DNA from: an uncultured Kineosporia sp.
Lineage (GTDB): Bacteria > Actinomycetota > Actinomycetes > Actinomycetales > Kineosporiaceae
DNA: 32,933 nucleotides
Direction of reading: 5' to 3'
Assembly: GCA_937859855.1 (NCBI GenBank)
Contig: CALMAR010000302.1
Span: 1 to 32,933 of the forward strand
Below the pieces are notes generated by a model. It did no database searches. It saw only the letters and a list, made by a program, of their open reading frames with translations, and had not been told where the DNA came from. Position 1 is the stretch's first letter. Every line of letters starts with the position of its first letter. The position numbers and the translations under genes were made by a program. Below are positions 12,865 through 32,356 of the stretch, one piece after another.

Positions 12865-12878
12865 GCCGGAGTTCCGAC

Positions 12879-14533: not shown

Positions 14534-15661
14534 GTGTTCACCAAGGTCGGCAGCAGGCGCGCTTCAAGTTTCGGGACCTGTGCCCTTCTTGCAGTGAGCG
14601 TTTCAGTTCTGGTGCAGTTGCCGTCGACCGCCCAGACCAGCAGGACTGAGACAGTGGCGGCCAAGATTCGGAACAGCGCGACAAGCAAGAAGCTGCCGGT
14701 GAAGACAGCCGCCACCCTCAACTATCAGGAATCGCTGGCCGGTCCGTTCGGGACCAGCAGCGTATGGAAGACCAACATCAGTTCCGCTCCACTTGCCAGC
14801 AATTCGAAGGAAATGGTTGCCAAGCTCGCGGGTCAGGCTGCTTCGCTCTACGGCGGAATCGCTGCATTTAATGTATGGAATTACAACACGAGCTTCTACA
14901 GCGTGACCGCCAGCCAGAAACGAGTGGACGTCAAATGGGATGATTGCCAGGGAAAGGGATATGTCCCGGCAGGCCTGTTCGGATCGGGCGGCCAGTTCAT
15001 GTCAGTGCCGATCCCCGACGACGCCGTCCCGGCCGCGGGTACCGATTCCTCGCTGTCGATCTATCAACCCAGTTCTGACACGATGTGGGACTTCTGGCTG
15101 GCCAAGAAGAACTTGGATGGCTGGCACGCCTGCTGGGGTGGCCGCATGGACAAGGTTTCTCAAGCCGGAGGCTGGTTCCCCGGGCGTTTCGGGGCCTCGG
15201 CCAGTGGCCTCTCCCAGATCGGCGGGTCGCTTGGTATCCGGGAGGCCCAAGCGGGTCGAGTGAATCATGCACTGGCGCTGCACATTCCGCGCCCTGCTGT
15301 CTGGTACGACGTCAGTTGGCCTGCTCAAAGGTCCGACGGCATGGACACCGGCCCGAACGGGATCCCGGAAGGAACACGGCTCCGCCTGGACCCCAGCGTC
15401 GACGTCAGCAAGCTCGGCTTGCATCCACTGGCCAAGATGATCGCGGTGGCCGCACAGAAATACGGGTTCATCGTCACTGACAAGTCAGGTTGTGTCGCAG
15501 TCGTAACCGAGAGTGGCGAGGCAACTCGGGCGGTGACCGGCGTCAATCCATGGGACAAGCTGCTCAACGGGACGCCAAATTATCGGGTGATGCAAGGGTT
15601 CCCCTGGGACAAGCTGCAGGCGCTCCCGAAAGACTACGGCAAGCCGATAGCCCTGAAGTAG
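14534..15661 (+). CDS. secreted protein of unrecognised family, paralog of the 31.3-32.4 kb gene
   Basis: A 375-residue protein. The GTG at 14534 is chosen because GGAG lies 5 bases upstream and it gives a clean signal peptide: basic VFTKVGSRR, hydrophobic CALLAVSVSVLVQL, cleavage near STAQ; an ATG at 14495 would add 13 residues. After a Lys/Thr linker (about 35-65) comes a folded domain with GPFGTSSVW, DDCQGKGYVPAGLFG (Cys138), IYQPSSDTMWDFW, WHACWGGRMD (Cys200), SWPAQRSDG, IPEGTRLRLDP, YGFIVTDKSG and FPWDKLQALPKDYG. The two Cys, 62 residues apart in both paralogs, may form a disulfide. I do not recognise a named family; the setting suggests binding or processing of the exported glycan (inference). 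Its 3' end overlaps the convergent glycosyltransferase by 98 bases. Confidence 0.85.
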   Translation: MFTKVGSRRASSFGTCALLAVSVSVLVQLPSTAQTSRTETVAAKIRNSATSKKLPVKTAATLNYQESLAGPFGTSSVWKTNISSAPLASNSKEMVAKLAGQAASLYGGIAAFNVWNYNTSFYSVTASQKRVDVKWDDCQGKGYVPAGLFGSGGQFMSVPIPDDAVPAAGTDSSLSIYQPSSDTMWDFWLAKKNLDGWHACWGGRMDKVSQAGGWFPGRFGASASGLSQIGGSLGIREAQAGRVNHALALHIPRPAVWYDVSWPAQRSDGMDTGPNGIPEGTRLRLDPSVDVSKLGLHPLAKMIAVAAQKYGFIVTDKSGCVAVVTESGEATRAVTGVNPWDKLLNGTPNYRVMQGFPWDKLQALPKDYGKPIALK

Positions 15662-16679
15662 GTTGCCTGGACTCCTTGGGCAGCAGACCTGCCACCGCCA
15701 GTAATTGGTCTGTGTACCGGCCAGGCGAGAAGTCAGTGAGGGCCACTTCCCTGGCCCGCTTCCGCATTGCGTCGTAGTGTTTCTGACGTTCGGGCCGGCA
15801 CACGTCTTTGATCGCGTCATTCAAGCATCCAGGAGTAGCCAGCACGCCAGTGACTCCGTCGACAATGTAATCAGCTGCAGCACCGATCGGGTCCGACACA
15901 ATAACCACCTTCGCCAGTGCCATAGCATTGAGATATGTCTGCTGTCCGGCGCTGCGCGATGACGCTTCAAGGGCGATCACAACGACGTCAGCCGCACGCA
16001 TCTCCGCAATAAACTGCTCATGAGGCAAGTGTTTGATAGTCACCTGATCGGCAACCTTTGCGGGCAGTTCTGTTGTCGCCACCGTCAGTGGCTGCCGAAC
16101 ATCTGCAAATGCATGTAAAAGTAGCTGATAATCCCTCAAACTGTTTCCGCCACTAAAAAAACGAATAGTTTCGGAATTATCCATCTCTCTTGGAATATAG
16201 TCCATGTCGTTCCATAGCGTGTGCGAGAAAGAAGTAAAGTAAATACGCTCCAGCGGCACGTTCCAAGTCGATGCAAACAACTGACGCTCTGCCTTGGAAA
16301 GGACACACCATCTGACCGTTGGCCCATCGCAAGCTTTGATCAACCCTTTCGCCAAGAGAGCTATCAGCCATCTGAGGGGTCCTAGTCTTCGCTCCAGTTC
16401 GCGACTTCGCGGTTGAATTGTGGCATCAGAAATAACAATTAACGGCGGCCGTCGACGAAGCCTGCGGACAAGAGCAGCCCCGACTAGGTCCCGATATCGA
16501 TCTCTCAGGGTTACGGTACCTCTAAGAATCAAAGCTTGGCGTCCTTTAGACATGTGCCAGAAGGATCTGAACCAACCTTGGTTGAATTGTGCTTCACCCG
16601 CGACTAAAACCTCGACCAGTTCTTTCCAACGTCGGTCTTCGTACCACATCGTACTGAGGATGGGGGCGCGCTCATTCAA
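15564..16679 (-). CDS. glycosyltransferase, GT4-like (GT-B fold)
   Basis: A 371-residue protein without signal peptide. The second half has the GT-B donor-domain pattern: IRFFSGGNSLRDYQLLLHAF, then a region with ADVVVIALEASSRSAGQQTYLNAMALAKVVIVSDPIGAAADYIVDGVTGVLA, where the Ala/Gly-rich stretch replaces the usual E-x7-E motif. Such enzymes move a sugar from a nucleotide donor to the growing lipid-linked glycan on the cytoplasmic membrane face. The C-terminal about 34 residues (after LLPKESRQ) are Ser/Ala/Pro-rich, lie antisense to the secreted-protein gene and look like read-through past an ancestral stop. The ATG at 16679 is the first in frame. It is about 50 bases downstream of the next GT gene on the same strand. 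Donor and acceptor unknown. Confidence 0.75.
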   Translation of the reverse strand: MNERAPILSTMWYEDRRWKELVEVLVAGEAQFNQGWFRSFWHMSKGRQALILRGTVTLRDRYRDLVGAALVRRLRRRPPLIVISDATIQPRSRELERRLGPLRWLIALLAKGLIKACDGPTVRWCVLSKAERQLFASTWNVPLERIYFTSFSHTLWNDMDYIPREMDNSETIRFFSGGNSLRDYQLLLHAFADVRQPLTVATTELPAKVADQVTIKHLPHEQFIAEMRAADVVVIALEASSRSAGQQTYLNAMALAKVVIVSDPIGAAADYIVDGVTGVLATPGCLNDAIKDVCRPERQKHYDAMRKRAREVALTDFSPGRYTDQLLAVAGLLPKESRQPTSGLSACRSLSGAPAACPRGTLASPDNLASR

Positions 16680-16728
16680 TTGACACTCCCTGGTAGTATT
16701 TGAGCAGTATTTAACCTAACCAATCGAC

Positions 16729-17547
16729 CTATCTACGTCGGCTACCCATGTAAAATCCAATATGTTCAGCCAACCGGAGCGGGCTGACACGGCGGGCCGC
16801 CTGTGGCCAAGAACTCTCATAGGGAAAGTCACTCCACCAATGGTTGATCGCCGTTGAGAATTTCGGGTTCGGTGGCTGGCCAAGCATGGCTAGACCCCGC
16901 CCTTCACGATATGTGCGTTTCCATAGTGCAAGGATACTTTCGCGTCGTCGGTGCGCAGAGGAAACCGTCAACGCCGAATCAAAGCGAAATATCCAGCCCA
17001 GTTCGAGCATACGCCAGAACCATTCTTTGTCTTCGCAGGCCGGAAGATCTTCTCGAAATTTGTTTTCTCGCCATGCTCTAGCCCTCCATGAGCTGGCATG
17101 GTTCGAGTATCCCCATTGGAAATTCTCGAGCGCCTCTTCAAGAGTAGGGGAGTAGATACCTTGAAGAATGTGTCCGTTCGGCTTGCGATCACAGCCGTTG
17201 GTGCCTACCACTCGTTCATCAAGATAGTGTCGAATCGAATCTTGCACCCAAGTGTCCTTGAGGGGGGCTCCGTGCGCCGAAAGCGCGAAATGAATGTTGC
17301 CGAGAGCGGCTTCGGCGCCCAGATTGAGGGCGCCCCCATAAGAAAAATGTGATGGGGAGATCTGGATAAGTTTGTCTGCGTGCCGCTTGGCGATGGCGAC
17401 GGTCCCATCTATTGATCCAGAGTCCACGACGATGATTTCGACAGGAACGGTCTGCCGACGAAGGTAACCAAGCGTTGCGCCGATGGTTCCCGCCTTGTTC
17501 AAAGCGCGAACGATCACGCTGGCCATCTGTAGTTCTTCGCGGATCAT
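16729..17547 (-). CDS. glycosyltransferase family 2, rhamnosyltransferase-like
   Basis: A 272-residue GT-A enzyme. ASVIVRALNKAGTIGATLGYLRRQ and VEIIVVDSGSIDGT give the nucleotide-binding N-terminus. SPSHFSYGGALNLGAEAA followed by LSAHGAPL is typical of the GT2 subgroup that contains rhamnosyltransferases, which suits the adjacent rml genes. DLPACEDKEWFWRMLELG is the candidate catalytic/acceptor region with the ED motif. The ATG at 17547 is chosen for AGGGG about 7 bases upstream; a second ATG at 17526 is possible, and the longer upstream frame runs into the divergent Wzz-like gene. The role inferred is adding rhamnose or a similar sugar. The space between its stop and the next GT start (16680-16728) is AT-rich. 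Confidence 0.82.
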   Translation of the reverse strand: MIREELQMASVIVRALNKAGTIGATLGYLRRQTVPVEIIVVDSGSIDGTVAIAKRHADKLIQISPSHFSYGGALNLGAEAALGNIHFALSAHGAPLKDTWVQDSIRHYLDERVVGTNGCDRKPNGHILQGIYSPTLEEALENFQWGYSNHASSWRARAWRENKFREDLPACEDKEWFWRMLELGWIFRFDSALTVSSAHRRRESILALWKRTYREGRGLAMLGQPPNPKFSTAINHWWSDFPYESSWPQAARRVSPLRLAEHIGFYMGSRRR

Positions 17548-17701
17548 GCGATATCCCCTAGAAAAGTATGAGTCGCCGCCGTGAGTCCCTGGTTGTCGTT
17601 TTGGTCGAGCTGACACCAGATATTGGCTCGTTGCTGAGAGCAACCTTACGGTCACGGTGAGCGATACACTCCTCACTGGACCAACGTCTGGGGAGTGGCG
17701 C
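17548..17701. promoter_or_regulatory. divergent promoter region between GT2 and the Wzz-like gene, with hairpins
   Basis: GTTGCTGAGAGCAAC at 17630-17644 is a perfect dyad (6-base arms, 3-base centre). A second looser pair, GTGAG at 17657-17661 and CTCAC at 17672-17676, follows it. These sit about 90 bases from the GT2 start and 60 from the Wzz-like start, positions suited to an operator for both directions or a leader hairpin for the Wzz-like mRNA. I could not fix -10/-35 boxes. Confidence 0.4.
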
Positions 17702-18700
17702 ATGAAGGTACGGTCGCGTACACGAAGATCATCAAGGGCTACCTGGCACAGGCTGGTTGTGGCGATTTTGTGCCTCATCGGGGGCGTCTGCGGGACTACT
17801 GCGGCTTTGCTGCAGGCGCCGATCTATACAGCTGAGACGCGGCTGAGTGTCGGCCGTTCGACCCTGTCCGCCAACATGATCCCGGGCTACGTCAGTGCGA
17901 CGCAGGATTTGGCGGCCAACTACGCTCGGTTCGTCACCACTGGCTCGATACGACCTGTCCTTCCGGAGAAGATCGCTGATGCGGTGAAGACCGTGTCGGC
18001 GAGTCCTATCGCAGAGTCCAACATCTTGCGCATTGAAGCGACCGCAATAGATCCTTCTGCAGCAGTAACAGCCGCCCAGATCGCGGCACGAGGGCTGACC
18101 CAAGAAGTCGAGAGCCTCTCGTCCGAAGAGTCGGCGAAGACAGCCCTATCGAGATACGCCAAGATCAGCCGTGAAGTTTCGGCGACCCAGCAAAAAGTTC
18201 AGGAAGCCCAAGGTAAAGTTGCTTCGTTGCGGCCTGGTGGCGGAAATGCGTCGTCCCCATCGAAGAAGCTGCTTTCGGCGCAGTCAGATGTTGTCACTTA
18301 TTCCACACAGCTACTCACACTTCAGGCGCAGCAGAACGCCCTGGGCGCTCAATACGTGAACCTGTCCAACACGAACAACGCTCAGGCCGAGTTGACCATT
18401 GTGGGGGCGGCCTCGGTGACTGGAGACGACACGGCAAGCCGACTGGAGTTGTACCTCTTGATAGGGCTTGGTGTTGGCGGCGGTATAGGACTGATTATTA
18501 ATCGGACAAGGGGCGACCTATTCATTCACAGCACCGAAGAGATGAATATGGCGCGCACCGATTCGGGCGAACACGTCGATTTGACTACCTCGCCGATGCC
18601 TGACGATCATTCGTTCCCAACGCCCCGAAGCGGTCAACTTAGCCCGCCAACCGCCAGCGCTTTACCCGGTGGCAGTGAATGGGCTCCCCGACGCAGATGA
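17702..18700 (+). CDS. Wzz/chain-length-determinant-like membrane protein without kinase domain
   Basis: A 332-residue protein. Basic N-terminus (residues 1-18), first membrane helix about 19-37 (LVVAILCLIGGVCGTTAALL), then the YTAETRLSVGR strand typical of Wzz domains, a long helical periplasm-type region with coiled-coil character (about 140-230, Gln/Ser/Ala/Lys heptads) and a second membrane helix about 255-275 (LELYLLIGLGVGGGIGLII). A 55-residue Ser/Pro/Asp tail follows, with no Walker motifs or Tyr cluster, so no fused BY-kinase. The family sets polysaccharide chain length. ATG 17702 has GGGGAG 6 bases upstream. Its end overlaps the ligase/polymerase gene by 22 bases, indicating an operon. 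Confidence 0.82.
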   Translation: MKVRSRTRRSSRATWHRLVVAILCLIGGVCGTTAALLQAPIYTAETRLSVGRSTLSANMIPGYVSATQDLAANYARFVTTGSIRPVLPEKIADAVKTVSASPIAESNILRIEATAIDPSAAVTAAQIAARGLTQEVESLSSEESAKTALSRYAKISREVSATQQKVQEAQGKVASLRPGGGNASSPSKKLLSAQSDVVTYSTQLLTLQAQQNALGAQYVNLSNTNNAQAELTIVGAASVTGDDTASRLELYLLIGLGVGGGIGLIINRTRGDLFIHSTEEMNMARTDSGEHVDLTTSPMPDDHSFPTPRSGQLSPPTASALPGGSEWAPRRR

Positions 18701-20064
18701 CCTATTTCGCCGTCGTTCCACCGGCTACGCCGAGCGCAACATCGTCGGCGCAGCCGTCGAGTCGGATTGGCACAACGGATTCGGCCGGTCCTGCTGTCTG
18801 GCTGTTCCTGGCCTTCTTGATCAGCAGCGTATTTGCCGGACGGAGCGATCTTCTGGGGTTACCGGTCGCCCCTCATCGGATTCTCCTCGGTCTCAGTCTG
18901 GTCCCTATCGCCTCCCTGCTGCGGAGATCTTGCGGCCCTCGGCTCCATTCGACCCCTCCCTACCATCAGAGCCTCATGGTCGCCACGGGCTTCTGGGCTG
19001 TCTGCTCAGCCTTGGCCGCCGGGACACTCTTCACGAATTTGGGTTTCTTCGCACTTCTAGACCGCCTCCTACTTCCCTTCATGAGTTTTGTCTTAGCCCC
19101 TCTGATCTTCCGCCGCCAAGCAGATCGGCAGCTCCTGCTCAAGTGCCTGATCCTGTTGGGTGTATATTTGGGCCTTACAGCTCTCCTTGAAATGACTGGG
19201 CTGCGCCAATTCGTGTTCACGGGCTACATCAACGATCCCCAGGTCGGTATTCACTTTGTGCTGGCACGGGGCCCTTTCGTGAACGCTGAAGCCGACGGCC
19301 TGGTCATGCTGACCTGTTGTTTCGCTGGCGCAACCGGGTTCTTTCGGTTTCGAAATCTATGGCGCTGGGTTTCGGTGCTCGCCTGCGCGGCTTGCAGTGT
19401 CGGATGCTTGCTGACCCTGACCCGTTCGGTGTGGCTTGGCTGCGTGCTGGCGGTCTTTGTGGCGGTTGGCAGCGACCCCCGGATGAGAAAAAAACTGCTG
19501 GTAATCGTGCCTGCGATTGTGGTCGGAACAGGGATTGTCCTGACTCTGGTGCCAGGGCTCCAGTCGGCTGTCACTGCTCGGGCCGGCACGGCTCGCTCAA
19601 TCTACGACCGGCAGAACACCAACGCGGCAGCGATTCGAGTAATCGAGCACAAACCCTTGTTCGGCATCGGATGGATGCGCTTTGTCGACGAAGGGGAGGA
19701 CTATGTAAGGCAAGCAAGCAATTTTCCCATCACGAATGTGCACATTGAGGTTCACAACGTGATCCTCAGTCGTGCGGCCGAATTGGGGTTGCCTGGAGCC
19801 GCCTTGTGGTTGTCATGTGTGCTGCTGGGCCCGGTAGCGGTAGCCTCACGCCGACGTAGCAGGAACGATCCACTGGAGGTGACCACCTGGACTATGGTTG
19901 CCACAGCAACGCTCTGCGGCTGGTCCGTCGCTGTGCTATCCAGTCCGGTGTCCTATCCGGTGGCGAACATGATGGTCTGGTTGCTGGCCGGGGTGCTGAT
20001 TGCTGCAGAGCGTGAGCACAATTCCCGGACAGGTGAAGGCGCTAGCCAAGCTCGGCCCGCATGA
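18679..20064 (+). CDS. O-antigen ligase/polymerase-like membrane protein
   Basis: A 461-residue polytopic membrane protein with about ten to twelve hydrophobic segments after a 35-residue Ser/Thr/Pro-rich N-terminus. The large external loop near residues 300-370 contains HKPLFGIGWMRF and then NVHIEVHNVILSRAAELGLPGAALW, the HN-x-E-x-G-x-PG signature of the Wzy_C/WaaL family. These proteins either polymerise or ligate lipid-linked oligosaccharides. Wall-anchored glycans of Gram-positive bacteria do not use WaaL-type lipid A ligation, so a polymerase is more likely here (inference). ATG 18679 has GGTGG upstream and overlaps the Wzz-like gene by 22 bases; the next gene overlaps its stop by 4 bases (ATGA). 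Three genes, 17.7-20.7 kb, thus form one unit. Confidence 0.85.
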   Translation: MGSPTQMTYFAVVPPATPSATSSAQPSSRIGTTDSAGPAVWLFLAFLISSVFAGRSDLLGLPVAPHRILLGLSLVPIASLLRRSCGPRLHSTPPYHQSLMVATGFWAVCSALAAGTLFTNLGFFALLDRLLLPFMSFVLAPLIFRRQADRQLLLKCLILLGVYLGLTALLEMTGLRQFVFTGYINDPQVGIHFVLARGPFVNAEADGLVMLTCCFAGATGFFRFRNLWRWVSVLACAACSVGCLLTLTRSVWLGCVLAVFVAVGSDPRMRKKLLVIVPAIVVGTGIVLTLVPGLQSAVTARAGTARSIYDRQNTNAAAIRVIEHKPLFGIGWMRFVDEGEDYVRQASNFPITNVHIEVHNVILSRAAELGLPGAALWLSCVLLGPVAVASRRRSRNDPLEVTTWTMVATATLCGWSVAVLSSPVSYPVANMMVWLLAGVLIAAEREHNSRTGEGASQARPA

Positions 20065-20708
20065 AGCGGCGTTACAGACTGGGCCCGCGGCGGGCGATTT
20101 CTGCAGTCATTTATCTGTCGTTCGCACGTCATCTACCCTGGTCGCCTCGCCCCGGTGGTCGGACAGCGCGCCGACTGAGAGCTGGCCTGGGCCGGTTGAT
20201 GTTGGATCGATGTGGGCGTGACGTCAACATCGAGCACGGCGCTTGGTTCGGATCAGGCCAGGGGATCGCATTGGGGGACCGGTCAGGTATCGGCATGGAT
20301 GCGTTGGTCATCGGACCCGTCAGTATCGGCCAAGACGTGATGATGGGACCGCGGTGCATGTTGATCGCGAGCAGCCACAACATTCGGTTAATTGATATCC
20401 CCATGAACAGGCAGGGTTATGTCGACGACCGCCCGATCATCGTGGAGGACGACGTGTGGATCGGGGCCGGTTCCATCATTCTGCCGGGCGTTCGGATCGG
20501 GCGGGGCAGCGTCATCGGGGCTGGGTCCGTAGTGCCCCGTGACGTACCGCCACTGAGCATCGTGGCCGGTAATCCCGCCCGGGTGGTCCGGCAACGAGGC
20601 GGACGATCCTCGTCGGCGAGCGGCCATGATCGACCGGCACGCAATCAAAGCGAACTTCGGATCGTCGATGAGATAGCGCCGCCAGAGCCGGCCAGGCTCC
20701 AGAAATAA
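20061..20708 (+). CDS. hexapeptide-repeat acyltransferase with read-through C-terminal tail
   Basis: A 215-residue protein. The left-handed beta-helix covers about residues 52-179: IALGDRSGIGMDALVIGPVSIG, DVMMGPRCMLIASSHN with the likely catalytic His, then IIVEDDVWIGAG, SIILPGVRIGRG, SVIGAGSVVPRDVPP and the terminal NPARVVRQR. It probably O-acetylates a sugar of the glycan. The ATG overlaps the upstream stop (ATGA). After residue 179 the family normally ends, but the frame continues 36 residues (Ser/Arg/Pro-rich) into the antisense of the convergent WecG-like gene core. In total the two coding frames overlap by 321 bases, so an ancestral stop and spacer seem to have been lost. Confidence 0.85.
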   Translation: MKRRYRLGPRRAISAVIYLSFARHLPWSPRPGGRTARRLRAGLGRLMLDRCGRDVNIEHGAWFGSGQGIALGDRSGIGMDALVIGPVSIGQDVMMGPRCMLIASSHNIRLIDIPMNRQGYVDDRPIIVEDDVWIGAGSIILPGVRIGRGSVIGAGSVVPRDVPPLSIVAGNPARVVRQRGGRSSSASGHDRPARNQSELRIVDEIAPPEPARLQK

Positions 20709-21455
20709 TCTGTGTAGCCACTCGAGCCCTAGGGTCTGCCACATCTTCCCGGCTCTAGGCAGTTGCCCGGAGACGATATCGATCGTTCCTCCGAGACAAA
20801 GGTACGCGCCGGGAGGCAACTTGTCCCGGTGTTCGTTAACCCATATCTCCTGCTTGGGGCAACCGAAAAAAACGGCCACCACGTTGGCGCCGCTGGTGGT
20901 GATCTCTTCGATGATGCCATCTGAACCAGACTCGCTGACCCAAGCGGTGTTCCGCCCCACCAGTTGCAGTCGCGGATACCGCTGACGAAGAACTCTTGCG
21001 GCCGCGGTGCTGTTGCGTTCTGATCCACCGAGCAGGAACAACCGCAGCCCGTCGTCCTGAAGTGCGCAGATCTCCTCGAGTAGATCAACGCCGGTCACCC
21101 GATGCGCCGGGACAGACATCAACTTCGCAGTCCAGACCAAGGGCTGACCGTCAGGAACCGACAAGTCAGCGGCCCAGTAGGCCGAGGCGAGACTCTCGTC
21201 GCGCTCCAGCCGGACGATGTGATCAGCATTGGCTGTAACCACGAGTGACGGCGCTGCTCCGGCCGCGAGACTTCTTACCCGGTCCACAGCCTGGCTCATG
21301 GAGACGCAGGCCAGTTCAGCGCGTCCGATGCGTACGGTGGGAACCGGTCCTTGAAGCGCACGAATGACGGGACGGAGCTGCTCAATCCGGACCTCTGGGC
21401 GTGGCCGAGGGACTTCGTTGACCGGATGGACGCGGTGCTGCTGCCGGTCGGTCAT
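20388..21455 (-). CDS. WecG/TagA/CpsF family glycosyltransferase with read-through tail
   Basis: A 355-residue protein. The family core is about residues 38-283: VVTANADHIVRLERD, LSVPDGQPLVWTAKLMS (Asp of the active site), LFLLGGSERNSTAAARVLRQRYP, VVAVFFGCPKQEIWVNEH (the diagnostic CPKQE) and MWQTLGLEWLHRLFLEPGRLWRRYL. Family members add ManNAc, ManNAcA or a related sugar to the lipid-linked first sugar in teichoic acid, ECA and capsule synthesis. The ATG overlaps the stop of the upstream GT4 gene by 4 bases (ATGA). The last 72 residues do not look like the family; they are antisense to the hexapeptide core of the convergent acyltransferase. The N-terminal about 37 residues are Arg/Pro-rich and also outside the core. 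Confidence 0.87.
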   Translation of the reverse strand: MTDRQQHRVHPVNEVPRPRPEVRIEQLRPVIRALQGPVPTVRIGRAELACVSMSQAVDRVRSLAAGAAPSLVVTANADHIVRLERDESLASAYWAADLSVPDGQPLVWTAKLMSVPAHRVTGVDLLEEICALQDDGLRLFLLGGSERNSTAAARVLRQRYPRLQLVGRNTAWVSESGSDGIIEEITTSGANVVAVFFGCPKQEIWVNEHRDKLPPGAYLCLGGTIDIVSGQLPRAGKMWQTLGLEWLHRLFLEPGRLWRRYLIDDPKFALIACRSIMAARRRGSSASLPDHPGGITGHDAQWRYVTGHYGPSPDDAAPPDPNARQNDGTGPDPHVVLHDDRAVVDITLPVHGDIN

Positions 21456-22753
21456 CGAACGTTCTCCTGAGCTGCCCGGCCTGCCTTGACGAATAGGGGC
21501 GCCAGCAGCTGGGCGCCTCGGTCCGGAGAATGTAGGCGGCGGACCTTCTGGACGGCGTTGCTGCCGAGTCGGAGGGCCAACTCTCGATCGGTGGACAGCC
21601 GGACCAAGGCGTCATGAAGAACGTCCGCCCGGCCCGGGGAGACGACTAGCCCGCTGACTCCGTCGTCCACGAGTTCGGGTATGCCGGCTATCCGGGTCGT
21701 GATCACGGGAAGCCCGGTGGACATGGCTTCCATCAGGACCACAGGAAGACCTTCGGAGAAGCTGGGCAGGCAGAAGACATCGGCCCACTCGTAATGAGAA
21801 GGAAGTTCGTCCTGCCCCACCGGCCCGACAAACGTCACGACATCAGAGAGACCTCGGATCGCCACTTCACGATGCAGTCCCTCTGCGAGTGGGCCGCCGC
21901 CAACGATTCGCAGCTCCACGTCACCGAGGCCGCGGATGGCGTCCAGCAGAATCTGAGGACCCTTCTGAGGGACCAGTCGCCCGACAAAGAGAATGCGCAG
22001 GGGGTTTGGCCGCCGCGTAGCCCGTTCGTCCAACGTGGAAGGGTAATGGCGCAGGTCCACAGTCATCGGCACGATGTACAATTTGGGCCAATGGCACGGT
22101 TCAACCAGATGCATCAGCTGCGAGCGGCAGAAGTCACTGATACAAGCCACGAAAGCCGCGGAACGAACCTTTTCCGCGACATCCGAACCGAGTACATCGA
22201 AGAACTCGGAGGGCCCATGCATTGCCAGGCTCCAGCTCCAAGTTGAGCTTTGGGTCCGATCAGCGATCGCCACAGCCAGCCGCGCTACATCCGCTCCATT
22301 GTTAGCGAAATGTACGTGTACATGACTGATTTGGGCTGCACGCATCCGTTCGACCAAGAGCGCAGCCTCAGCGAGGTAGAAGAGTTGCCAGAGACGCCTC
22401 CGCGCCATGGGCTGACCCGTACACATCGCCCGCCACAGCATCGAGACCCCGGCCGAAGGATGCCTGATCAAGAGGCGGAGCAGCGCGGCCACCGGCTGAA
22501 TTGGCTTGTCCAGCAGCACTTCGGTCGTCGCTTGTTCGGCTCGACCAGTTGACGAGTGTAAGTCCTCCATCGAGGGGGGGCGAACCGTGAACGTGTGCAC
22601 TCTGACGCCAGCGGCGCGCAAGGCCCGGATCTCACGGGCTATGAACTCATGAGACAACTTGGGGTACTGGCTCACCAAGTAGGCCACTGTCAGCGGCGGG
22701 GACTTATCCGCGGCTGGTGGTCTGGAGGTAAGCAACGGATTGCTAGCTAACAT
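21452..22753 (-). CDS. glycosyltransferase family 4
   Basis: A 433-residue GT-B enzyme. Acceptor-side motif VAYLVSQYPKLSHEFIAREIRAL (residues 23-45) is typical of GT4 colanic-acid type (WcaL-like) enzymes; SHVHVHFANNGADVARLA follows near 145. The donor half has ILFVGRLVPQKGPQILLDAI, LRIVGGGPL, VTFVGPVGQDEL, then FSEGLPVVLMEAMSTGLPVITT containing the E-x7-E motif, and GIPELVDDGVSG. It retains the sugar configuration and acts at the membrane face. The ATG at 22753 lacks a clear ribosome site. Its stop overlaps the WecG-like start, so the two are coupled. It follows the GT2 gene upstream after about 60 bases. Donor unknown. Confidence 0.92.
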   Translation of the reverse strand: MLASNPLLTSRPPAADKSPPLTVAYLVSQYPKLSHEFIAREIRALRAAGVRVHTFTVRPPSMEDLHSSTGRAEQATTEVLLDKPIQPVAALLRLLIRHPSAGVSMLWRAMCTGQPMARRRLWQLFYLAEAALLVERMRAAQISHVHVHFANNGADVARLAVAIADRTQSSTWSWSLAMHGPSEFFDVLGSDVAEKVRSAAFVACISDFCRSQLMHLVEPCHWPKLYIVPMTVDLRHYPSTLDERATRRPNPLRILFVGRLVPQKGPQILLDAIRGLGDVELRIVGGGPLAEGLHREVAIRGLSDVVTFVGPVGQDELPSHYEWADVFCLPSFSEGLPVVLMEAMSTGLPVITTRIAGIPELVDDGVSGLVVSPGRADVLHDALVRLSTDRELALRLGSNAVQKVRRLHSPDRGAQLLAPLFVKAGRAAQENVR

Positions 22754-22814
22754 TCAACGCAGAGTAGTTGGCATCGCTGCAAGTTAGGCGATGCCACACG
22801 GTCCTGGCTCTAGG

Positions 22815-23735
22815 TCAGCGTACTGAGCTAACCCGGCCAGTCATCACTTTCAGCCCGACGGCCGCGAGCAGCCGTTGCCGCTGTTCTCGTCGGTGCCTGG
22901 CGCGGAGTTCGGACGGATAGGGGCCGTGACCGGCCAAGAGGTATCCATAGACCACGGCAGCGCCGCCAACCAGTCGCGGCCGCCGGAAGCAGTACCTGAG
23001 TGAGTGAAGCAGGAGATACGGCCACCAGTAGCCGGTCCAGCGGCAGACCACGCCATTGCGGTATCGGCCGTGGATGCGCCCTTGGCTGGCACCGATGGCG
23101 CGCCGGATCCGGATCTTGGCTTGGCCGATGGTGGTGGTCAGGTAGCCGGCGTCACGAATGGACAGCTCATCGATGACATCGAATCCGACACTGCGGGGCA
23201 AATGGGTCAGGCACGTATACCCCCGCCAGCTGTAAGCTTTGGCTGGTCCCGGGACGTGCCAAAGTCGTTCCTGATGACCTGGACCTTCCAGAAGGCCGCC
23301 GGCGCAGTCGAAATGGCTCAGAGCTTGACTTATCAGCCGGAGATAGTTTTCGGAAAGCTCTACATCTGCATCAAGTTTCATGAGCCACGACGGATGCAGG
23401 CCGCGCCCGAGGGCCCAGTCCACTCCGCTCTGCCATGCCCGGAAAGCCGAGCCGCCGATGAGTCCGCCGCTGTTCCGTGTCTCGATGACGTACTTCGGAA
23501 AGTCGACCTCGAGGCTCCGGGCAATGTCACCGGTGGCATCCGTACTTCCATCATCGACGATCACCCACGCTCTGATTTGGCGGCTGTCCTGGGCCATCAG
23601 CGCACGAGCGCAGTAGGCCAGATTTTGCGCTTCGTCGTGGGCCGGTGTCACGATGAGCCAGCCGTGGCGTGATTCCGCTTCCGGTGTGGCCATAGATACC
23701 CGCTCACCCGAGTGGTCCCACGTAGAACCGTTCAT
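22815..23735 (-). CDS. glycosyltransferase family 2
   Basis: A 306-residue GT-A enzyme. WLIVTPAHDEAQNLAYCARALMAQ (residues 26-48), AWVIVDDGSTDATGD (about 56-70) and WLMKLDADVEL (about 118-128, the DxD metal motif) define the family. The C-terminal half, rich in Arg and aromatic residues (RWTGYWWPYLLLHSLRYCFRRP), probably lies on the membrane. Two starts are possible: ATG 23735 (used) and ATG 23693, which follows a weak AGCGGG and would begin MATPEAES, 15 residues shorter. It lies 12 bases after the stop of the next GT2 gene, so they are one operon. The conserved HxGR/hydroxyl-binding region is not obvious. Donor unknown. Confidence 0.85.
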   Translation of the reverse strand: MNGSTWDHSGERVSMATPEAESRHGWLIVTPAHDEAQNLAYCARALMAQDSRQIRAWVIVDDGSTDATGDIARSLEVDFPKYVIETRNSGGLIGGSAFRAWQSGVDWALGRGLHPSWLMKLDADVELSENYLRLISQALSHFDCAGGLLEGPGHQERLWHVPGPAKAYSWRGYTCLTHLPRSVGFDVIDELSIRDAGYLTTTIGQAKIRIRRAIGASQGRIHGRYRNGVVCRWTGYWWPYLLLHSLRYCFRRPRLVGGAAVVYGYLLAGHGPYPSELRARHRREQRQRLLAAVGLKVMTGRVSSVR

Positions 23736-23747
23736 AAAGCCGCAGGC

Positions 23748-24575
23748 CTATCGGGTCGTAAAATCACGTATCCAGTCCGATCCCGGGGCAAGGCGCGCGC
23801 GCGTCCGGGCTACGAACGTGACGCCCGCATAGACACAGGCAGCTGCCAGGAGACGTGGATTACCAATCACCAGCCGAATCAGCGCCCGGGCCGTTTCTGA
23901 TCCGGTCGCGCTTTGCCCCTCATCATGAGCAGCCAACTGTGCATTGGCCCGGGCGATCCGAGCACGTACAGCGGTCAATGAGCGCAGCGTGCGAGGGGTC
24001 TGAACCACGAACGAGCAGTTCGTCAGCACCACCCGCTCGGCCGGATCGAATAGACGTTGAACGAAGAGGTCATCGGCCATCACATTTGGAAATTCTTCGA
24101 AGCGCCGCCGGCCAGCTTCGGAGATGGCGTACAGACCCAAGCCTGTCAGCCCGTTCTGCACGTACGGGAGGGCCCGATAGGCGCGGTAGAACGCTCGGAC
24201 TGACCAAGGTCGGCCCTCAGTCAGCAGTTCGACGCTGGGAGCGCAGACCCGTGCTTTATCTCCCGCCACCGCGTCTCGCACGGAACGCAGAGCCAGGGCG
24301 CTGACAGAGACATCGGCGTCGAGATAAACCCGGGGAAACGCAGCGACCGCTGAGTCACCAGCGTTGAGCGCCGTGGTCTTTCCTGCCTCTTCTAGTTCGA
24401 TGACCCGAACGTCGGGTATCGCAGCAGCCGCGCTGGCAGTGCCGTCACTGCACCCATTGGCAACAACAACAACCTCCGCCTCACCGGGGTCCAAGTGCGC
24501 CACGAATGCAAGACATCGGCTGATCACCGCCTCTTCATCGTGCGCCGGAATCACCACGGAGAAGGCTGGCCTCAT
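23748..24575 (-). CDS. glycosyltransferase family 2
   Basis: A 275-residue GT-A enzyme. FSVVIPAHDEEAVISRCLAFV opens the protein, EVVVVANGCSDGTAS (about 33-48) binds the nucleotide, and FPRVYLDADVSVSALALRS (about 80-97) holds the DxD motif. MADDLFVQRLFDP (about 165-178) is the later acidic motif found in GT2 enzymes that make polysaccharides. A C-terminal hydrophobic patch (LLAAACVYAGVTFVA) may contact the membrane. AGAGGTGA is placed about 4 bases upstream of the ATG at 24575. It is the first gene of a leftward operon of four glycosyltransferases (24.6 to 20.4 kb), divergent from the ABC transporter genes. Confidence 0.9.
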   Translation of the reverse strand: MRPAFSVVIPAHDEEAVISRCLAFVAHLDPGEAEVVVVANGCSDGTASAAAAIPDVRVIELEEAGKTTALNAGDSAVAAFPRVYLDADVSVSALALRSVRDAVAGDKARVCAPSVELLTEGRPWSVRAFYRAYRALPYVQNGLTGLGLYAISEAGRRRFEEFPNVMADDLFVQRLFDPAERVVLTNCSFVVQTPRTLRSLTAVRARIARANAQLAAHDEGQSATGSETARALIRLVIGNPRLLAAACVYAGVTFVARTRARLAPGSDWIRDFTTR

Positions 24576-27121: not shown

Positions 27122-27521
27122 GGCACCCAGTTTTTCTATTTCCCTATCCGACCGTCAGTAGGAAAAATCGTAAGTGATCGTAAATCTGCGACCTCACACG
27201 CTGCGGCCTTTACCTCTGGCGTTTCAAAAAGGGCACGATCAATTGACTTGCTTCTTCACGCATAAGCTTAATCGACTCGGAAAGCGATCGATGGTGACCG
27301 AGCACTTGCAAGAACGTAAGAAGTTGGTTGGCAGGACTACCTGTTCGTCAATACGCATGAGTCGGGCGGACAGCGCGCATCTAGAGCCTGGTATGTACCT
27401 CACTATCAGCCCTTTACAAGCTCATGTCCTCGTTCTCGCTAAGGTCAGCCGTCCCCATCAGATCATGACGCTTAAATAAACGATGTTAGTGCTACGAGTT
27501 ATATTTCAAACGGAGGTAACA
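27122..27521. other. AT-rich 400-base stretch without a convincing gene
   Basis: This separates wzt from the methyltransferase. A 101-codon open frame (27174-27479) is present, but it has no ribosome site, no recognisable motif and irregular composition, so I do not call it a gene; it could be a remnant of a lost gene. ATCGTAA occurs twice, 10 bases apart, at 27167-27183. The stretch ends with GGAGG, which serves the methyltransferase. A promoter for the downstream genes may lie within it; none is clear. Confidence 0.5.
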
Positions 27522-28196: not shown

Positions 28197-28269
28197 GAAC
28201 ATGAGCGCCATGGCCGCTTGCACGCGTGTCCAGTTGACTCAAGTTTATGTGGAATTTGAAAGGAACACC

Positions 28270-29166
28270 ATGGCTGAATGCTTCCACGTTCGACTGAGCC
28301 TGGCGATGCTCCACTCTGTGCCGAAGCGTTTTCTGCGAGCGGTATACAAGACCGATCGATTTCCGGGTAAAAGGATCCGGCCAATGCTCTTGAATCTGCC
28401 GTCTGTCCTATCAAGTTCGCGTGCATCGCGGCACTTTTCGGGGCTTCAGAATAGAAAGACTGTTGTCTTATGTGTATACCGAAGACGCAACGCTCATGTC
28501 GTTCACAAACTGATAAATGGATGCGCCAGCGACAGTACAGAGATACGATTGTGGGCCCTTGACTCAGTGGCGCCGAGTTTGGCGCGATTCACTTGTGGGA
28601 GTGGCCAGGGACCGAGATGTACGTTGCTCAATCGCCTGTGGACCCAATCGACGACCAACCCTGACTGGCTCGTCATAGCTGACGATGACGTCGCACTCTT
28701 AAGGTCGTGGACCCTCTCAGCAGTGATTGGAGCAATGTCAATGCTTGATGTCGACTTCGCTCAGCCTGCCCATGCCGCGAATAGTCATCATTCTCACTGG
28801 TTTAACGTGCGTCGCCCTCTCGTCGCCGGGAGAGCCGTGGGCGCGGTAGAAATTGGACCACTGTTTCTCGTTAAAGCCCCTTGGATTGACCGCGTTGTTC
28901 CCTTTTCGAAAGACGCCGGGATGGGCTATTTCCTGGAGTGGTTTTGGGCAACCTTTGAGAAGGAAGGATGTCGCTCAGCAGTACTCGACTGCGTGCCAAT
29001 GCGCCACTTGGGGGCTGTTGGCGCAAGTTACGGTTCCGTGGCTCTCGGCTCAAGCGAGCAGCCCGACGCGGGCTCGGTATCTGTGGACCAACTCGTGTCT
29101 CAGTCTCCGAACTATGGACGGCTATTGTGGCCTTCGAGCATCCCGCGTGCAGATTGTGCGCCATGA
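28270..29166 (+). CDS. putative glycosyltransferase, GT-A-like, not assigned to a family
   Basis: A 298-residue protein. RKTVVLCVYRRRNAHVVHKLI near residue 60-80 resembles the start of a GT-A fold, and DWLVIADDDVALLRSW (about 135-150) supplies a DDD metal motif. VEIGPLFLVKAPWIDRVVPFSKDAGMGYFLEWFWA (about 195-230) and AVLDCVPMRHLGA give the rest of an active-site pattern seen in poorly characterised bacterial glycosyltransferases. The ATG at 28270 is chosen for AAAGGA about 6 bases upstream; an ATG at 28201, 4 bases after the methyltransferase stop, lacks a ribosome site. It is co-directional with the methyltransferase and probably cotranscribed. Donor, acceptor and family number unknown. Confidence 0.7.
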   Translation: MAECFHVRLSLAMLHSVPKRFLRAVYKTDRFPGKRIRPMLLNLPSVLSSSRASRHFSGLQNRKTVVLCVYRRRNAHVVHKLINGCASDSTEIRLWALDSVAPSLARFTCGSGQGPRCTLLNRLWTQSTTNPDWLVIADDDVALLRSWTLSAVIGAMSMLDVDFAQPAHAANSHHSHWFNVRRPLVAGRAVGAVEIGPLFLVKAPWIDRVVPFSKDAGMGYFLEWFWATFEKEGCRSAVLDCVPMRHLGAVGASYGSVALGSSEQPDAGSVSVDQLVSQSPNYGRLLWPSSIPRADCAP

Positions 29167-29247
29167 TAGGCCCCGTTTCGACAAAGGACGGTCTATCAAC
29201 TGCAGTGTCTCCGCTTGTTTTCGAGGCAATGAGCTTATAAGTCTGGT

Positions 29248-30129
29248 TCAAGTGGGTAGATTCCAGAGTTTACGTTCAACTAGATCAACAACGTGCTGAT
29301 CGGCTGAGGTGAATTTGCGAGCCATGAGCATAGCCGCTCGGCCGTAGGGTGTGACTTCACTGGCTTGCTCCGGTTGCGCTAGCCAATCGATGTCTTTAGT
29401 CGTTAATGGTCGCGCCGACCATCCTTGCCATCGAATAAATATGGGAGCCGGTTGGCGGACGCTGTTAAAAATGGAGTTGCCGATCAACGTTTGAAAGAAG
29501 AATTCGTCTGGCACTTGCGAAGTGCGGGCTAAGCAGACGAAAGCCGGTCGTTGGCTCGTCTGTTTAAGAACGTAGTCAACCGCTGAACCGGTGAGAGCGA
29601 GCCATTGACTTCCGCAAAAGGGCCGCATTCCCTGCAACAAGTACTTATAGGGACTGCGACTGTGCCGGCTGATGATGCCAAGGACTCGGTTGAAACGGCC
29701 CCCTTTGCGGCGCTCTATGTGCACCCGCGATATCCGTTCGAGCTGTTTATCAATCTCCGGCGCGGGGAAGGGCAGCAAGTCTATGAATTGCGTTTCAGGA
29801 TAACGGCTAAGCCAGGATTCTAGTTGCTTCGGTGCTCGGATCGGGTAACTGTCGCCACTCACCAGCCAATAGTGTGTGGCAGTTGGTGCCACCTCGCGAG
29901 CTAGTCGAAAAGCTCGTAGAGTGGCCTTAATCATGCTGAAGCCGCCCCAATTTACACTGACACGATTGGTAACAAAATGTACAGATGGGGGAGCTGAGCG
30001 TTGGAACTGCTCTATGTCCACTCCGGCATCGACATGTGCCACTACTTGTTGGCCACCGTCGGTCAAGGTCTCACACAGTCTCACGAAGTGGAGCGGCTCG
30101 ATGTGAGCCAGGACGACGAAGCAAATCAT
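29248..30129 (-). CDS. GT14-like glycosyltransferase (Core-2/I-branching enzyme family)
   Basis: A 293-residue protein that starts MICFVVLAHIEPLHFVRL. VVAHVDAGVDIEQF and SVNWGGFSMIKATLRAFRLA (about residues 55-75), followed by HYWLVSGDSYPIR (about 85-98), are characteristic of the Branch family (beta-1,6-N-acetylglucosaminyltransferase-like, PF02485). GSQWLALTGSAVDYVL and VPDEFFFQTLIGNS (about 205-220) complete the conserved core; the VPDE/F-F-Q element is the typical acidic motif. Bacterial members are common in surface polysaccharide loci. Transcribed opposite to its flanking genes, it has its own promoter in 30130-30360. The exact sugar is unknown. Confidence 0.85.
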   Translation of the reverse strand: MICFVVLAHIEPLHFVRLCETLTDGGQQVVAHVDAGVDIEQFQRSAPPSVHFVTNRVSVNWGGFSMIKATLRAFRLAREVAPTATHYWLVSGDSYPIRAPKQLESWLSRYPETQFIDLLPFPAPEIDKQLERISRVHIERRKGGRFNRVLGIISRHSRSPYKYLLQGMRPFCGSQWLALTGSAVDYVLKQTSQRPAFVCLARTSQVPDEFFFQTLIGNSIFNSVRQPAPIFIRWQGWSARPLTTKDIDWLAQPEQASEVTPYGRAAMLMARKFTSADQHVVDLVERKLWNLPT

Positions 30130-30456
30130 TGATCAACAACTCACAGCTTGAACGATGGACAATTGTCATGAATCGTGTCTTCGGAGATGTCACCCTGTCA
30201 TTATCACGTCATCGACAGACGCTCCATGGTACTGATTCCAAGCAGGAGTGCGGTGTTGTGGCTACTGGTGGCGAGTCGCAATCTTAGAGGATAATTCTAA
30301 AAAGGCCACAGATGTTAACATGTAACCTTCTGGGTTTTGGCCTCTTGCCTCATTAGTTGAGTTTTGAGCTTTTTCGGGTGCGCTTCGGCAGTGCTGGCAA
30401 GGCAGATAACTGCGCCCACTCACATAGTGGGTCGGCAGGTTTACGGTGCGGCACCT
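30130..30456. promoter_or_regulatory. divergent region between the GT14 gene and the WKLTGRY protein gene
   Basis: About 327 bases if the downstream gene starts at 30457. GATAAT at 30290-30295 is a good rightward -10 candidate and sits inside an inverted repeat, TTAGA (30284-30288) and TCTAA (30296-30300). No matching -35 is seen. AGGCCA (30302-30307) and TGGCCT (30337-30342) can pair across a long loop. Sequence 30280-30370 is AT-rich. The TTG-initiated frame running from 30364 is discussed in the next entry. Confidence 0.35.
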
Positions 30457-31266
30457 ATGTCAGTTGGCAGTCAACCTTTAGGCTGCGCTGCTATGCAGCA
30501 GCTGGCTAGAGCGCCTCATGCAAGGCGGATCGTCCTGCTGACCGCGACTGTCCAGCCGCACGCCGCCTCTGGCGGCTTGGCCGTCATAGATCCAGAGGTC
30601 CGGCGGGACCAGTACCTGTCAGCGTTCGAACATATGTTTCGCTCGGTCCCGTCGGGCGTCGCAGGAATCGTGGTCGGCGAAAACAGCGCGTTCAATTTGG
30701 ATCCTTTTCGGCGACTGGCCAAGAGCGTTGGCTGTTCAGTGCCCATTGAGTTCGTCGAAGCCCCGCCGATGACGGACGTGCCGGGGAGGCCGGGCCGCGC
30801 CTATTTGGAAGCCCACCTCATCTATGAGGCGATGATGAAGTCCGACTTGGTGGACGACCGCGCGGTAGTCTGGAAGCTGACTGGGCGTTATACGGTGCCG
30901 AACCTCGATCGGGTTATCTGTGATCGCGCACTGCCTTACGACCTGTACTTCAACGTGCGCCGGTACCCGAGACCGTGGGCCGATATGTTTCTGTTCGGCG
31001 CTACCCGTTACGGGATGTCGCAGATCTTGGATCACGTCGATCTTCTCCGCGAGGACGCGACCGCCCAGTGCGCGGAACAGTCTCTCGTCACCGTGCTGAG
31101 GGACCTGGAGGCCAAGGGCACAGGCGTTGACTGGCGGTTCCCAGTCGAGACGAAGCTATCCGGAACCCGCGGGTATGACGGCCGTCCCTATGAGTCACCT
31201 AAGCAGCGGGTCAAGTACGCGATCCGAGCCAGCAGCAGATTTGCGTTGCCTCGGCTATGGCTCTAG
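30457..31266 (+). CDS. protein of unrecognised family with WKLTGRY motif, polysaccharide locus
   Basis: Using ATG 30457 gives 269 residues; TTG 30364 (300 residues) or ATG 30493 are alternatives, none with a strong ribosome site. The conserved-looking core starts at RRIVLLTATVQP. It contains RRDQYLSAFEHMF, IVVGENSAFNLDPF, WKLTGRYTVPNLDRV, YDLYFNVRRYPRPWADMFLFGATRYGM and a basic C-terminus (PKQRVKYAIRASSRF). No signal peptide or membrane helix is evident, so it is probably cytoplasmic. The K-x-T/S-GRY motif and aromatic-rich middle recall uncharacterised proteins of capsule and O-antigen loci that may be glycosyltransferases, but I cannot assign a family. Its composition is GC-rich again, unlike 24.6-30.3 kb. 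It converges on the secreted-protein gene with 25 bases between the stops. Confidence 0.75.
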   Translation: MSVGSQPLGCAAMQQLARAPHARRIVLLTATVQPHAASGGLAVIDPEVRRDQYLSAFEHMFRSVPSGVAGIVVGENSAFNLDPFRRLAKSVGCSVPIEFVEAPPMTDVPGRPGRAYLEAHLIYEAMMKSDLVDDRAVVWKLTGRYTVPNLDRVICDRALPYDLYFNVRRYPRPWADMFLFGATRYGMSQILDHVDLLREDATAQCAEQSLVTVLRDLEAKGTGVDWRFPVETKLSGTRGYDGRPYESPKQRVKYAIRASSRFALPRLWL

Positions 31267-31291
31267 GTGGCGGTGTCGGCTGAAAGCGCGA

Positions 31292-32356
31292 TCAGGCTGT
31301 CCGACCGTAGTTAGGAGGTAGCACCTGCATTTTGCTCCAGGGAAAGTTTCGCATGATGTGATAACTGGGCTCGCCGTGCATGTACTTGGCCCAAGGGTCC
31401 TTGCCGGTGACCTGCTTGGTCGCGTAGCCACTTTCGGCGACGACGGACACCGCTCCAGACTTGTCGGTAACGATGAATCCGTATTGCTGCGCTGCACGGG
31501 CCACCATCTTGCCGATCGGGGTCAGGTGAAGCTTGTTGATGTTCACCTTGGGATCGAGACGGAGGCGGGTCCCCTCAGGGATCGCGTTCTTGTCGTTACT
31601 GAATCCGTCCGAGCGCTGGGCCGGCCAGCTGAACTTGGTCCAGCTCGCCGGGGAGATCAGTTGCAAGGTCAGGGCATGCTCGATGCGACCGGCCATAACG
31701 TCTCGAATCCCGATGGCTCCCCCGATGGATGAAAGCCCTGTCGCGGTTACGCCGTGTCCGCCGGAAAACCATCCGCCCGATGTCGACACGTGGTCGAGGC
31801 GGCCACCCCAGCAGGCACTCCAGCCCGAAGCGGTCAACGTCATCTGCCAGAACTCCCAGCTGGTGTCCGTACTCGGCTGGTAGATGACCAGAGTCTTGTC
31901 GGTACCGAAGGACGGCGTCGCGTTGGACGGCACCGGGACGCCGACGAACTGGCCGCCTGCGCCGAACAGGCCGGCCGGGACATAGCCCTTGCCCTGGCAG
32001 TCGTTGAAACGGACCGTCACCCGCTTCTGCCACTTCTGCACCACGTACACGTTGGTCGCGTACTGGTCCACGTTGAAGGCGGCAACCCCACCCCAGTTCG
32101 GCGTCACCTGGCCGACGAGGTTCCGCACCATGGCCCGCGAGTTCTTGGCCAAGGGAGCCTTGTCGATCCGCTTCTTCCACACGCTCTTGGCTGAGAAGGG
32201 ACCACCACGCGGCAGCTGCACGGACTTGGCCGACCGCTTGCTCGGGGCCTTCTTGATCTCGGGTGCCTTCGCCTCCGCCGATCCAGGGCTCATGGCCGAG
32301 ATCACGAGGAGCAGCCCGAACGCCGTCAGCAGCCGGAGACGCGTGTTGATCATCAT
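31292..32356 (-). CDS. secreted protein of unrecognised family, paralog of the 14.5-15.7 kb gene
   Basis: A 354-residue protein with signal peptide: MMINTRLRLL, hydrophobic TAFGLLLVISAM, cleavage near GSAEA. A Lys/Pro/Ser linker (about 30-50) precedes the domain shared, without visible gaps, with the 14.5 kb paralog: GPFSAKSVW, NDCQGKGYVPAGLFG (Cys120), IYQPSTDTSWEFW, SACWGGRLD (Cys182), SWPAQRSDG, IPEGTRLRLDP, YGFIVTDKSG, FPWSKMQVLPPNYG. The Cys spacing of 62 is the same in both. GGAAGG lies about 9 bases upstream of the ATG. It is exported by Sec and, lacking a sorting signal or membrane helix, is likely free or wall-associated. Function unknown; a lectin or carbohydrate-active enzyme fits the setting (inference). 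Confidence 0.88.
   Translation of the reverse strand: MMINTRLRLLTAFGLLLVISAMSPGSAEAKAPEIKKAPSKRSAKSVQLPRGGPFSAKSVWKKRIDKAPLAKNSRAMVRNLVGQVTPNWGGVAAFNVDQYATNVYVVQKWQKRVTVRFNDCQGKGYVPAGLFGAGGQFVGVPVPSNATPSFGTDKTLVIYQPSTDTSWEFWQMTLTASGWSACWGGRLDHVSTSGGWFSGGHGVTATGLSSIGGAIGIRDVMAGRIEHALTLQLISPASWTKFSWPAQRSDGFSNDKNAIPEGTRLRLDPKVNINKLHLTPIGKMVARAAQQYGFIVTDKSGAVSVVAESGYATKQVTGKDPWAKYMHGEPSYHIMRNFPWSKMQVLPPNYGRTA

Follow-up and report, generated by a model that had tools for sequence, protein, structure and literature searches.

What do two related secreted proteins, encoded at either end of a cluster of polysaccharide genes, do for the bacterium that makes them, and which polysaccharide are they made for? 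The question is raised by a 32,933-nucleotide stretch of an uncultured Kineosporia sp. (contig CALMAR010000302.1; hereafter the window), in which a preliminary description had singled out the genes at 14534..15661 (+) and 31292..32356 (-) and proposed that their products are extracellular partners (binding protein, lyase/hydrolase or transferase) of a rhamnan-type glycan exported by an ATP-binding cassette (ABC) transporter. On a narrow balance of probability we conclude that they are secreted enzymes predicted to cleave or remodel the product of a Wzy-dependent exopolysaccharide system. This reading is supported by the neighbourhood of the family, its co-occurrence with the system across genomes, the invariance of D153, H227 and D298, fused carbohydrate-binding modules, relatives in phage tails and hydrophobic N-termini. 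Among the binding protein, lyase/hydrolase and transferase that had been considered, we lean towards an enzyme of this sort. The preliminary description therefore gave the right kind of explanation with the wrong partner genes, the partner being a synthesis module rather than Wzm/Wzt or the rml genes.

Both open frames are present at these coordinates, and their products resemble each other in the way first described. Paralogue 1 (P0001) begins with a GTG at 14534, an upstream ATG at 14495 being an alternative start that would give 388 residues, and consists of a signal-like N-terminus, a linker and a conserved domain from about residue 70, while paralogue 2 (P0002) is likewise of secreted type and its domain starts at about residue 52. 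Signal peptides were assessed by eye in these two proteins and with a simple rule of hydrophobicity in the wider family. BLASTP aligns the two with 193/363 identities (53%, E 9e-139) and 18 gap positions, every one of which falls upstream of the motif GPF; from GPF to the C-terminus the alignment is ungapped, as had been claimed, with 178 of 303 residues identical (59%). The cysteine pairs, C138/C200 in paralogue 1 and C120/C182 in paralogue 2, have the reported spacing of 62 residues, and the motifs SWPAQRSDG, IPEGTRLRLDP, YGFIVTDKSG, DCQGKGY and ACWGGR are each found in both proteins. Judged at the level of sequence this likeness is to be read as homology rather than chance, since a protein search with the pair returned 672 homologues at E<=1e-3.

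Neither protein matched a Pfam or NCBIfam family up to E 10 and no sequence relative was found in the PDB (best E 0.59), which agrees with the earlier remark that the family has no named function. Among the 120 homologues listed, names, where there were any, were limited to 'hypothetical', 'DUF4124', or were borrowed from an attached NPCBM domain. DUF4124 was tried as an identity and rejected, as neither window protein matched it within the limit just given and it was not among the 11 families matched by 40 members scanned at E<=1. Relatives in Kineococcus and Spongisporangium (P0006, P0008 and others) carry the label 'DUF4124 domain-containing', which the Pfam model does not support in the copies scanned.

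With which genes does the family travel? A scan of one genome per species gave 71 loci, with 119 relatives confirmed and the best 80 kept. The loci lie in actinomycetes (Kineococcus, Pseudokineococcus, Mobilicoccus, Austwickia, Arsenicicoccus, Nocardioides and others), in betaproteobacteria (Methylotenera, Thiomonas, Massilia, Duganella, Noviherbaspirillum and others), and in a few other groups. For counting, the 45 loci of at least 18 kb (17 actinomycete and 28 other, the latter mostly betaproteobacterial) were queried with the glycan proteins of the window, and 40 hand-placed 20-kb regions on family-bearing contigs, 20 per group, served as controls. Six genes form what we call the module: a WecG/EpsA-like transferase, an EpsE-like GT4 (GT4b), a GT2 (GT2c), Wzy, Wzz and an acyltransferase. 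Two or more of the six occurred close to the family in 14/17 loci of actinomycetes and in 20/28 of the rest, and in 0/40 control regions. Gene by gene, the actinomycete loci contained GT4b in 14, GT2c in 14, Wzy in 13, Wzz in 13, the acyltransferase in 12 and WecG in 11 (controls 3, 0, 0, 0, 1 and 0 of 20, respectively), and the other loci GT4b in 20, WecG in 18, GT2c in 17 and the acyltransferase in 15 (controls 1, 0, 0 and 1 of 20, with Wzy and Wzz both at 0). When the count was widened to 22 actinomycete loci, including some shorter ones, Wzy-like proteins were recovered in 20, GT4b-like in 19 and GT2c-like in 19-20 (controls 0/20). The median distance from a family gene to the nearest module gene was 68.5 bp in one set (30 of 35 genes) and 100 bp in another (21 of 29 genes), the remaining genes having no module gene in their locus, and a locus holds up to 3 paralogues. 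In Methylotenera (L068 and L069) two family genes stand close together, in L068 without nearby module genes.

The same count bears on the genes to which the secreted pair had originally been assigned. All four rml genes and Wzm/Wzt do lie within the window, which is the natural starting point for the view that the pair serves a rhamnose-containing or ABC-exported glycan. However, across the actinomycete loci rmlB, rmlD and Wzm were found near the family in 0/17 (controls: rmlB 1/20, Wzm 2/20) and Wzt in 2/17 versus 8/20 controls, and in the other loci rmlD, Wzm and Wzt were each found in 0/28 (Wzt controls 4/20); rmlA and rmlC were absent from the query set. In favour of a rhamnose partner are rmlB-like matches in 10/28 non-actinomycete loci versus 1/20 controls; with E about 1e-14 to 1e-21 these matches are weak, and sugar epimerases of another kind may be behind them. 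In the window itself the genes from Wzm to 30129 have a third-position guanine-plus-cytosine (GC) content of 0.49-0.62 against 0.83 for paralogue 2, as if they had been inserted. We regard a rhamnose or ABC-export partnership as very improbable. What stands of the preliminary proposal is the tie to a glycan locus, seen both against same-contig controls and in presence and absence across genomes; a rhamnan-type, ABC-exported glycan as the partner is not supported.

The presence/absence data were drawn from whole genomes. Each of 22 genomes, the sources of 22 of the loci and selected as carriers, has 1-4 family copies with E values under 1e-50, often within a single locus, and one of the genomes (G022) has an extra weak match. 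NCBIfam contains the models EPS_EpsE and EPS_EpsA, which we take to be built on Myxococcus xanthus proteins. In 10 carrier genomes EPS_EpsE gave 5-25 matches each, the best of which lay within about 16 kb of the family in 8/10; in G007 the family-adjacent EpsE-type copy is split over two frames and another copy scores higher. All 14 control genomes were also matched, none of them over the cut-off, and the model alone is therefore unspecific. Among 59 genomes of the order of one carrier (G001), 7 contained the family at E<=1e-40. The GT4 was detected in 8 (E<=1e-50), and these 8 were also the ones with Wzy (E<=1e-30); the eighth module genome has a 41-residue family fragment (E 5.6e-19) at the end of its GT4-bearing contig. 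At the thresholds used the family thus occurs in 8/8 module genomes versus 0/51 others (Fisher p 4.5e-10), or in 7/7 versus 0/51 when G001, the centre of the set and a known positive beforehand, is left aside. In 60 genomes of the family of another carrier (G019), the secreted protein was present in 8 (centre included), and the GT4 in 8/8 of those against 10/52 of the rest (p 1.7e-5).

Which residues might do the work? In a set of 223 non-identical members, comprising the window pair, the listed homologues and the locus copies, D153 and H227 (paralogue 2 numbering) are present in 223/223, R248, D250 and R264 in 222 each, and D298, C120 and C182 in 221 each. A 13-row alignment that reaches to Streptomyces, two phage proteins and proteobacterial relatives, down to 21% identity, leaves P143, D153, H227, P245, A246, G262, A286, G293 and D298 invariant. 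From this conservation D153, H227, R248/D250 and D298 are put forward as candidate active-site residues of paralogue 2. Simple rules recognized a hydrophobic N-terminal segment in 62 of 67 single-domain members (330-380 residues) and a lipobox-like motif in 13. A non-catalytic protein that holds the exopolysaccharide at the surface or cross-links the matrix, its invariant residues serving the fold or sugar binding, would account for a number of these features, including the many near-invariant tryptophans (W167, W170, W179, W183 and W340, each kept in >=98% of the 223 rows), the lipoprotein-type members, the several paralogues per locus, and the fusions to carbohydrate-binding modules (12/120 of the close homologues listed, with NPCBM in 8 and malectin in 4; Big_7, another domain partner, is seen in 1). 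Yet D153 and H227 are fixed in all 223 rows and down to 21% identity, phage proteins included, and such invariance exceeds what binding usually demands. We accordingly consider a pure binder somewhat unlikely and prefer a cleaving or remodelling enzyme.

The domain extends well beyond the glycan loci. A Streptomyces-type unnamed superfamily (alignments A3 and A5) aligns with it in hhalign at 99.7% (E 4.2e-25, 229 columns), and a search with that group scored at least 7998 proteins, of which the 120 listed had the names 'hypothetical', 'uncharacterized' or none, bar one cell wall-binding repeat protein. On a more distant branch, represented by a Tsukamurella protein in which both PA14 and CBM60 occur, the 120 listed relatives carry PA14 in 38 cases, CBM60 in 26 and others in fewer; no separate glycoside hydrolase or lyase domain was recognised among them, some of the accession numbers being unfamiliar. 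The combination with PA14 and CBM60 is seen in Tsukamurella, Gordonia and Aeromicrobium (L073:4357-6480 and relatives), while proteins of Mycobacteroides and Mycobacterium combine it with PA14. Those few distant relatives that were viewed are located outside the glycan module, and on a Tsukamurella plasmid, the one case viewed, no annotated glycan-assembly genes lie near the family domain protein.

Phages have the domain as well. PHROG 17388, a minor tail protein, shares it (E 1.5e-11 to P0001 and 6.1e-9 to P0002); a search limited to E 1 matched 57 phage records, 55 of them from Gordonia phages, and the 20 listed are 24-30% identical; a viral structure library gave five matches at E<=0.001, including a Gordonia minor tail protein and a beta-helix protein. 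In one such minor tail protein (L075:3689-5305) the family domain occupies the N-terminal half, where it is possibly a surface-glycan enzyme of the virion. Gordonia phages must cross the cell wall, which lends some weight to a third proposal, namely that the family cleaves peptidoglycan or arabinogalactan and so opens a path for the polymer or makes a site for its attachment. A second point for a wall enzyme comes from the fold. Structure comparison, which the preliminary description had suggested, gave no significant match and no known unrelated fold emerged from it; a weak, non-significant double-psi-barrel resemblance was found to a lytic transglycosylase and a barwin protein (MltA, barwin and RlpA presumably share the double-psi beta-barrel fold). 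Profiles of MltA (3 sequences) and RlpA scored 0.1-0.4% with hhalign, a test in which the intended positive control, RlpA against MltA, failed too at just 6.9%. Against a wall enzyme, presence tracks the exopolysaccharide module, and within one order the family was not found, at the threshold applied, in 51/59 genomes; we think wall cleavage decidedly unlikely.

Are the two copies in the window a recent duplication? Each is closer to a protein of another genome (63% to P0006 and 59% to P0003) than to its partner at 53%. In a quick 79-row tree both fall in one 10-row group supported by a Shimodaira-Hasegawa approximate likelihood-ratio test (SH-aLRT) value of 95, in which they are not sisters (only 84% SH-aLRT at the fork), bearing out the early view that divergence argues against recent duplication. 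Same-locus copies of several lineages, such as the three of Mobilicoccus and the three of Austwickia, likewise sit in separate cross-species groups, and in these lineages multiplicity is old and has been kept, as expected for copies with different tasks. Later duplications occurred too, because three copies of Nocardioides mangrovicus group together, as do two of the three in Agilicoccus.

Several observations weigh against a polymer-cleaving enzyme tied to this module. No enzyme family was matched by sequence or structure, and invariant polar residues with attached carbohydrate modules fit a lectin-like protein as well. Window-type Wzy and Wzz were found in 0/28 non-actinomycete loci, the six-gene core was picked after the first count, and 10/45 loci lack any module gene. 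The preliminary description had held that scattered homologues would speak against a glycan role; the studied branch is placed non-randomly, though these module-less loci and the few distant relatives viewed depart from it. The 25 of 126 families listed for 84 scanned neighbours of module-less loci include no glycan family; some of these loci are second copies where the other copy is module-linked (L028 versus L009 in Nocardioides mangrovicus, L035 versus L055 in Thiomonas delicata). The best EpsE-type match of G019 lies far from the family, and in another order just 2/100 genomes have the secreted protein, one of them the centre. As the genomes are related, the p-values are descriptive and overstate the number of independent events. 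Finally, in the family of G019 the GT4 occurs in 10/52 genomes without the secreted protein, which is therefore not essential for synthesis there. The genome-wide tests therefore indicate a protein that follows the module, yet is dispensable for it in some bacteria.

How might such an enzyme act? In the scheme that we infer, which includes what the module proteins do in this organism as well as catalysis, substrate and chemistry, a polymer bound to a lipid carrier would be built by the WecG/EpsA-like, EpsE-like GT4 and GT2 transferases, polymerized by the Wzy protein and set in length by the Wzz protein. Once it is beyond the membrane, the secreted proteins would bind it through their conserved tryptophans and cleave, trim or re-link it as hydrolase, lyase or transglycosylase, with an active site drawn from D153, H227, R248/D250 and D298. 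The several paralogues of a locus might then serve different linkages or stages.

Pfam and NCBIfam matches give the order of genes in the window. On the left are allantoin-degradation genes, followed by rmlABCD, paralogue 1, two glycosyltransferases, Wzz-like, Wzy, acyltransferase, WecG-type, the EpsE-like GT4, two GT2, Wzm/Wzt, a methyltransferase, a Core-2/I-branching-like transferase, two genes without Pfam match and paralogue 2. The rml set (10339-13751) is complete for dTDP-L-rhamnose and arranged as two pairs, rmlD (10339-11241) with rmlB (11205-12200) on the minus strand and rmlC (12256-12864) with rmlA (12723-13751) on the plus strand, each over its NCBIfam equivalog cut-off, and is flanked by a hexapeptide transferase (13718-14281, -). 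Beside paralogue 1 are a GT4 (15564-16679, -) and a GT2 (16729-17778, -) that are less conserved (3/17 and 5/17 actinomycete loci). The Wzz-like chain-length protein (17657..18700, +; real start probably within this frame) has two hydrophobic segments and a weak, below-cut-off match to PF02706 (E 0.0068), and is kept beside the family. The Wzy/O-antigen-ligase family protein (18679..20064, +), with about 10 hydrophobic segments, scores 60.1 bits against a cut-off of 31.7 for PF04932, a family that includes ligases too, and stands beside transferases. The module continues with the hexapeptide acyltransferase (20061..20708, +), the EpsA-like WecG/TagA/CpsF glycosyltransferase (20388..21455, -), the EpsE-like GT4b (21452..22753, -; best NCBIfam match EPS_EpsE) and GT2c (23748..24575, -), the last two separated by GT2b (22815..23735, -), which is beside the family in 0/45 loci. 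The acyltransferase and WecG-type frames have 321 bases in common (within 20061-21455), which may be either a genuine overlap or the effect of a miscalled end. Wzm (24970-25866, +) and Wzt (25856-27121, +) form the ABC exporter, and near paralogue 2 the genes 28201-29166 and 30364-31266 have no Pfam match and no relative in the 45 loci counted.

The locus looks composite because third-position GC differs between blocks of genes: 0.81-0.89 in most genes left of 10237, 0.72 in paralogue 1, 0.53-0.63 in the three frames of 15564-18700 (0.53 and 0.56 in the two transferases), 0.64-0.70 across the genes between Wzy and GT2c inclusive, and 0.71 for 30364-31266. The Wzm/Wzt, methyltransferase and transferase-like genes (24970-30129) look as if inserted between the module and paralogue 2. 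No Wzx flippase was found among the window proteins scanned, nor any tblastn match at 1e-8 to the flippase-like proteins of relatives. By our judgement 12/22 actinomycete loci encode such a protein (8-11 hydrophobic segments; for example L012:7866-9731, L017:13833-15626, L032:13838-15580 and L026:8562-10247), two examples of which had no Pfam match when scanned, and L049 has a MOP-flippase-like protein at 253 bits against a cut-off of 273. Export in the window may thus differ from that of relatives, with Wzm/Wzt in place of the flippase-like protein.

What would this mean more widely? The data suggest an undescribed kind of protein, probably an enzyme, acting on finished polymer outside the cell. 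More tentatively, at a little under an even chance, we propose that the domain defines a superfamily of carbohydrate-active enzymes, large and without a name, that has a fold of its own and a D-H-(R/H)-D active site and is spread across exopolysaccharide loci, secreted multi-module proteins with PA14, CBM60, malectin or NPCBM (mycobacteria included) and phage tails, of which the branch studied here would be the dedicated remodelling enzyme of a widespread, undescribed EpsE-type exopolysaccharide in actinomycetes and betaproteobacteria. Thousands of predicted proteins contain this secreted domain, for which our searches of Pfam, NCBIfam and the PDB gave no match, and its tie to one polysaccharide module offers a concrete candidate substrate and named residues for mutation. 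If glycan cleavage proves true, a new enzyme family would follow, with possible tools against biofilm matrix, and its occurrence in phage tails could account for the passage of these phages through the host surface layer.

Among the accessory glycan hydrolases or lyases encoded in exopolysaccharide loci are AlgL, PslG, PelA, BcsZ and ExoK. The window pair is like them in being secreted or periplasmic proteins encoded inside the locus of the polymer on which they would act, and unlike them in having no match to a named enzyme family and up to 3 paralogues per locus. The Gordonia phage minor tail proteins of PHROG 17388 have the domain in common with the pair, although the example viewed is a 538-residue protein of putative function within a tail-gene cluster. 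The closest assembly system is the exopolysaccharide (EPS) pathway of M. xanthus, for which the published account names EpsA, EpsD, EpsE, EpsH, EpsU, Wzx, Wzy and EpsV, together with EpsB, a predicted glycosyl hydrolase, and EpsC, an acetyltransferase (PMC7484181). The window proteins score far below the curated cut-offs of its models (236 versus 400 bits for EPS_EpsE, 134 versus 500 for EPS_EpsA), yet the window GT4 matches EPS_EpsE best and the WecG-type protein EPS_EpsA second-best, and, as in that pathway, a Wzy-family protein and an acyltransferase accompany them.

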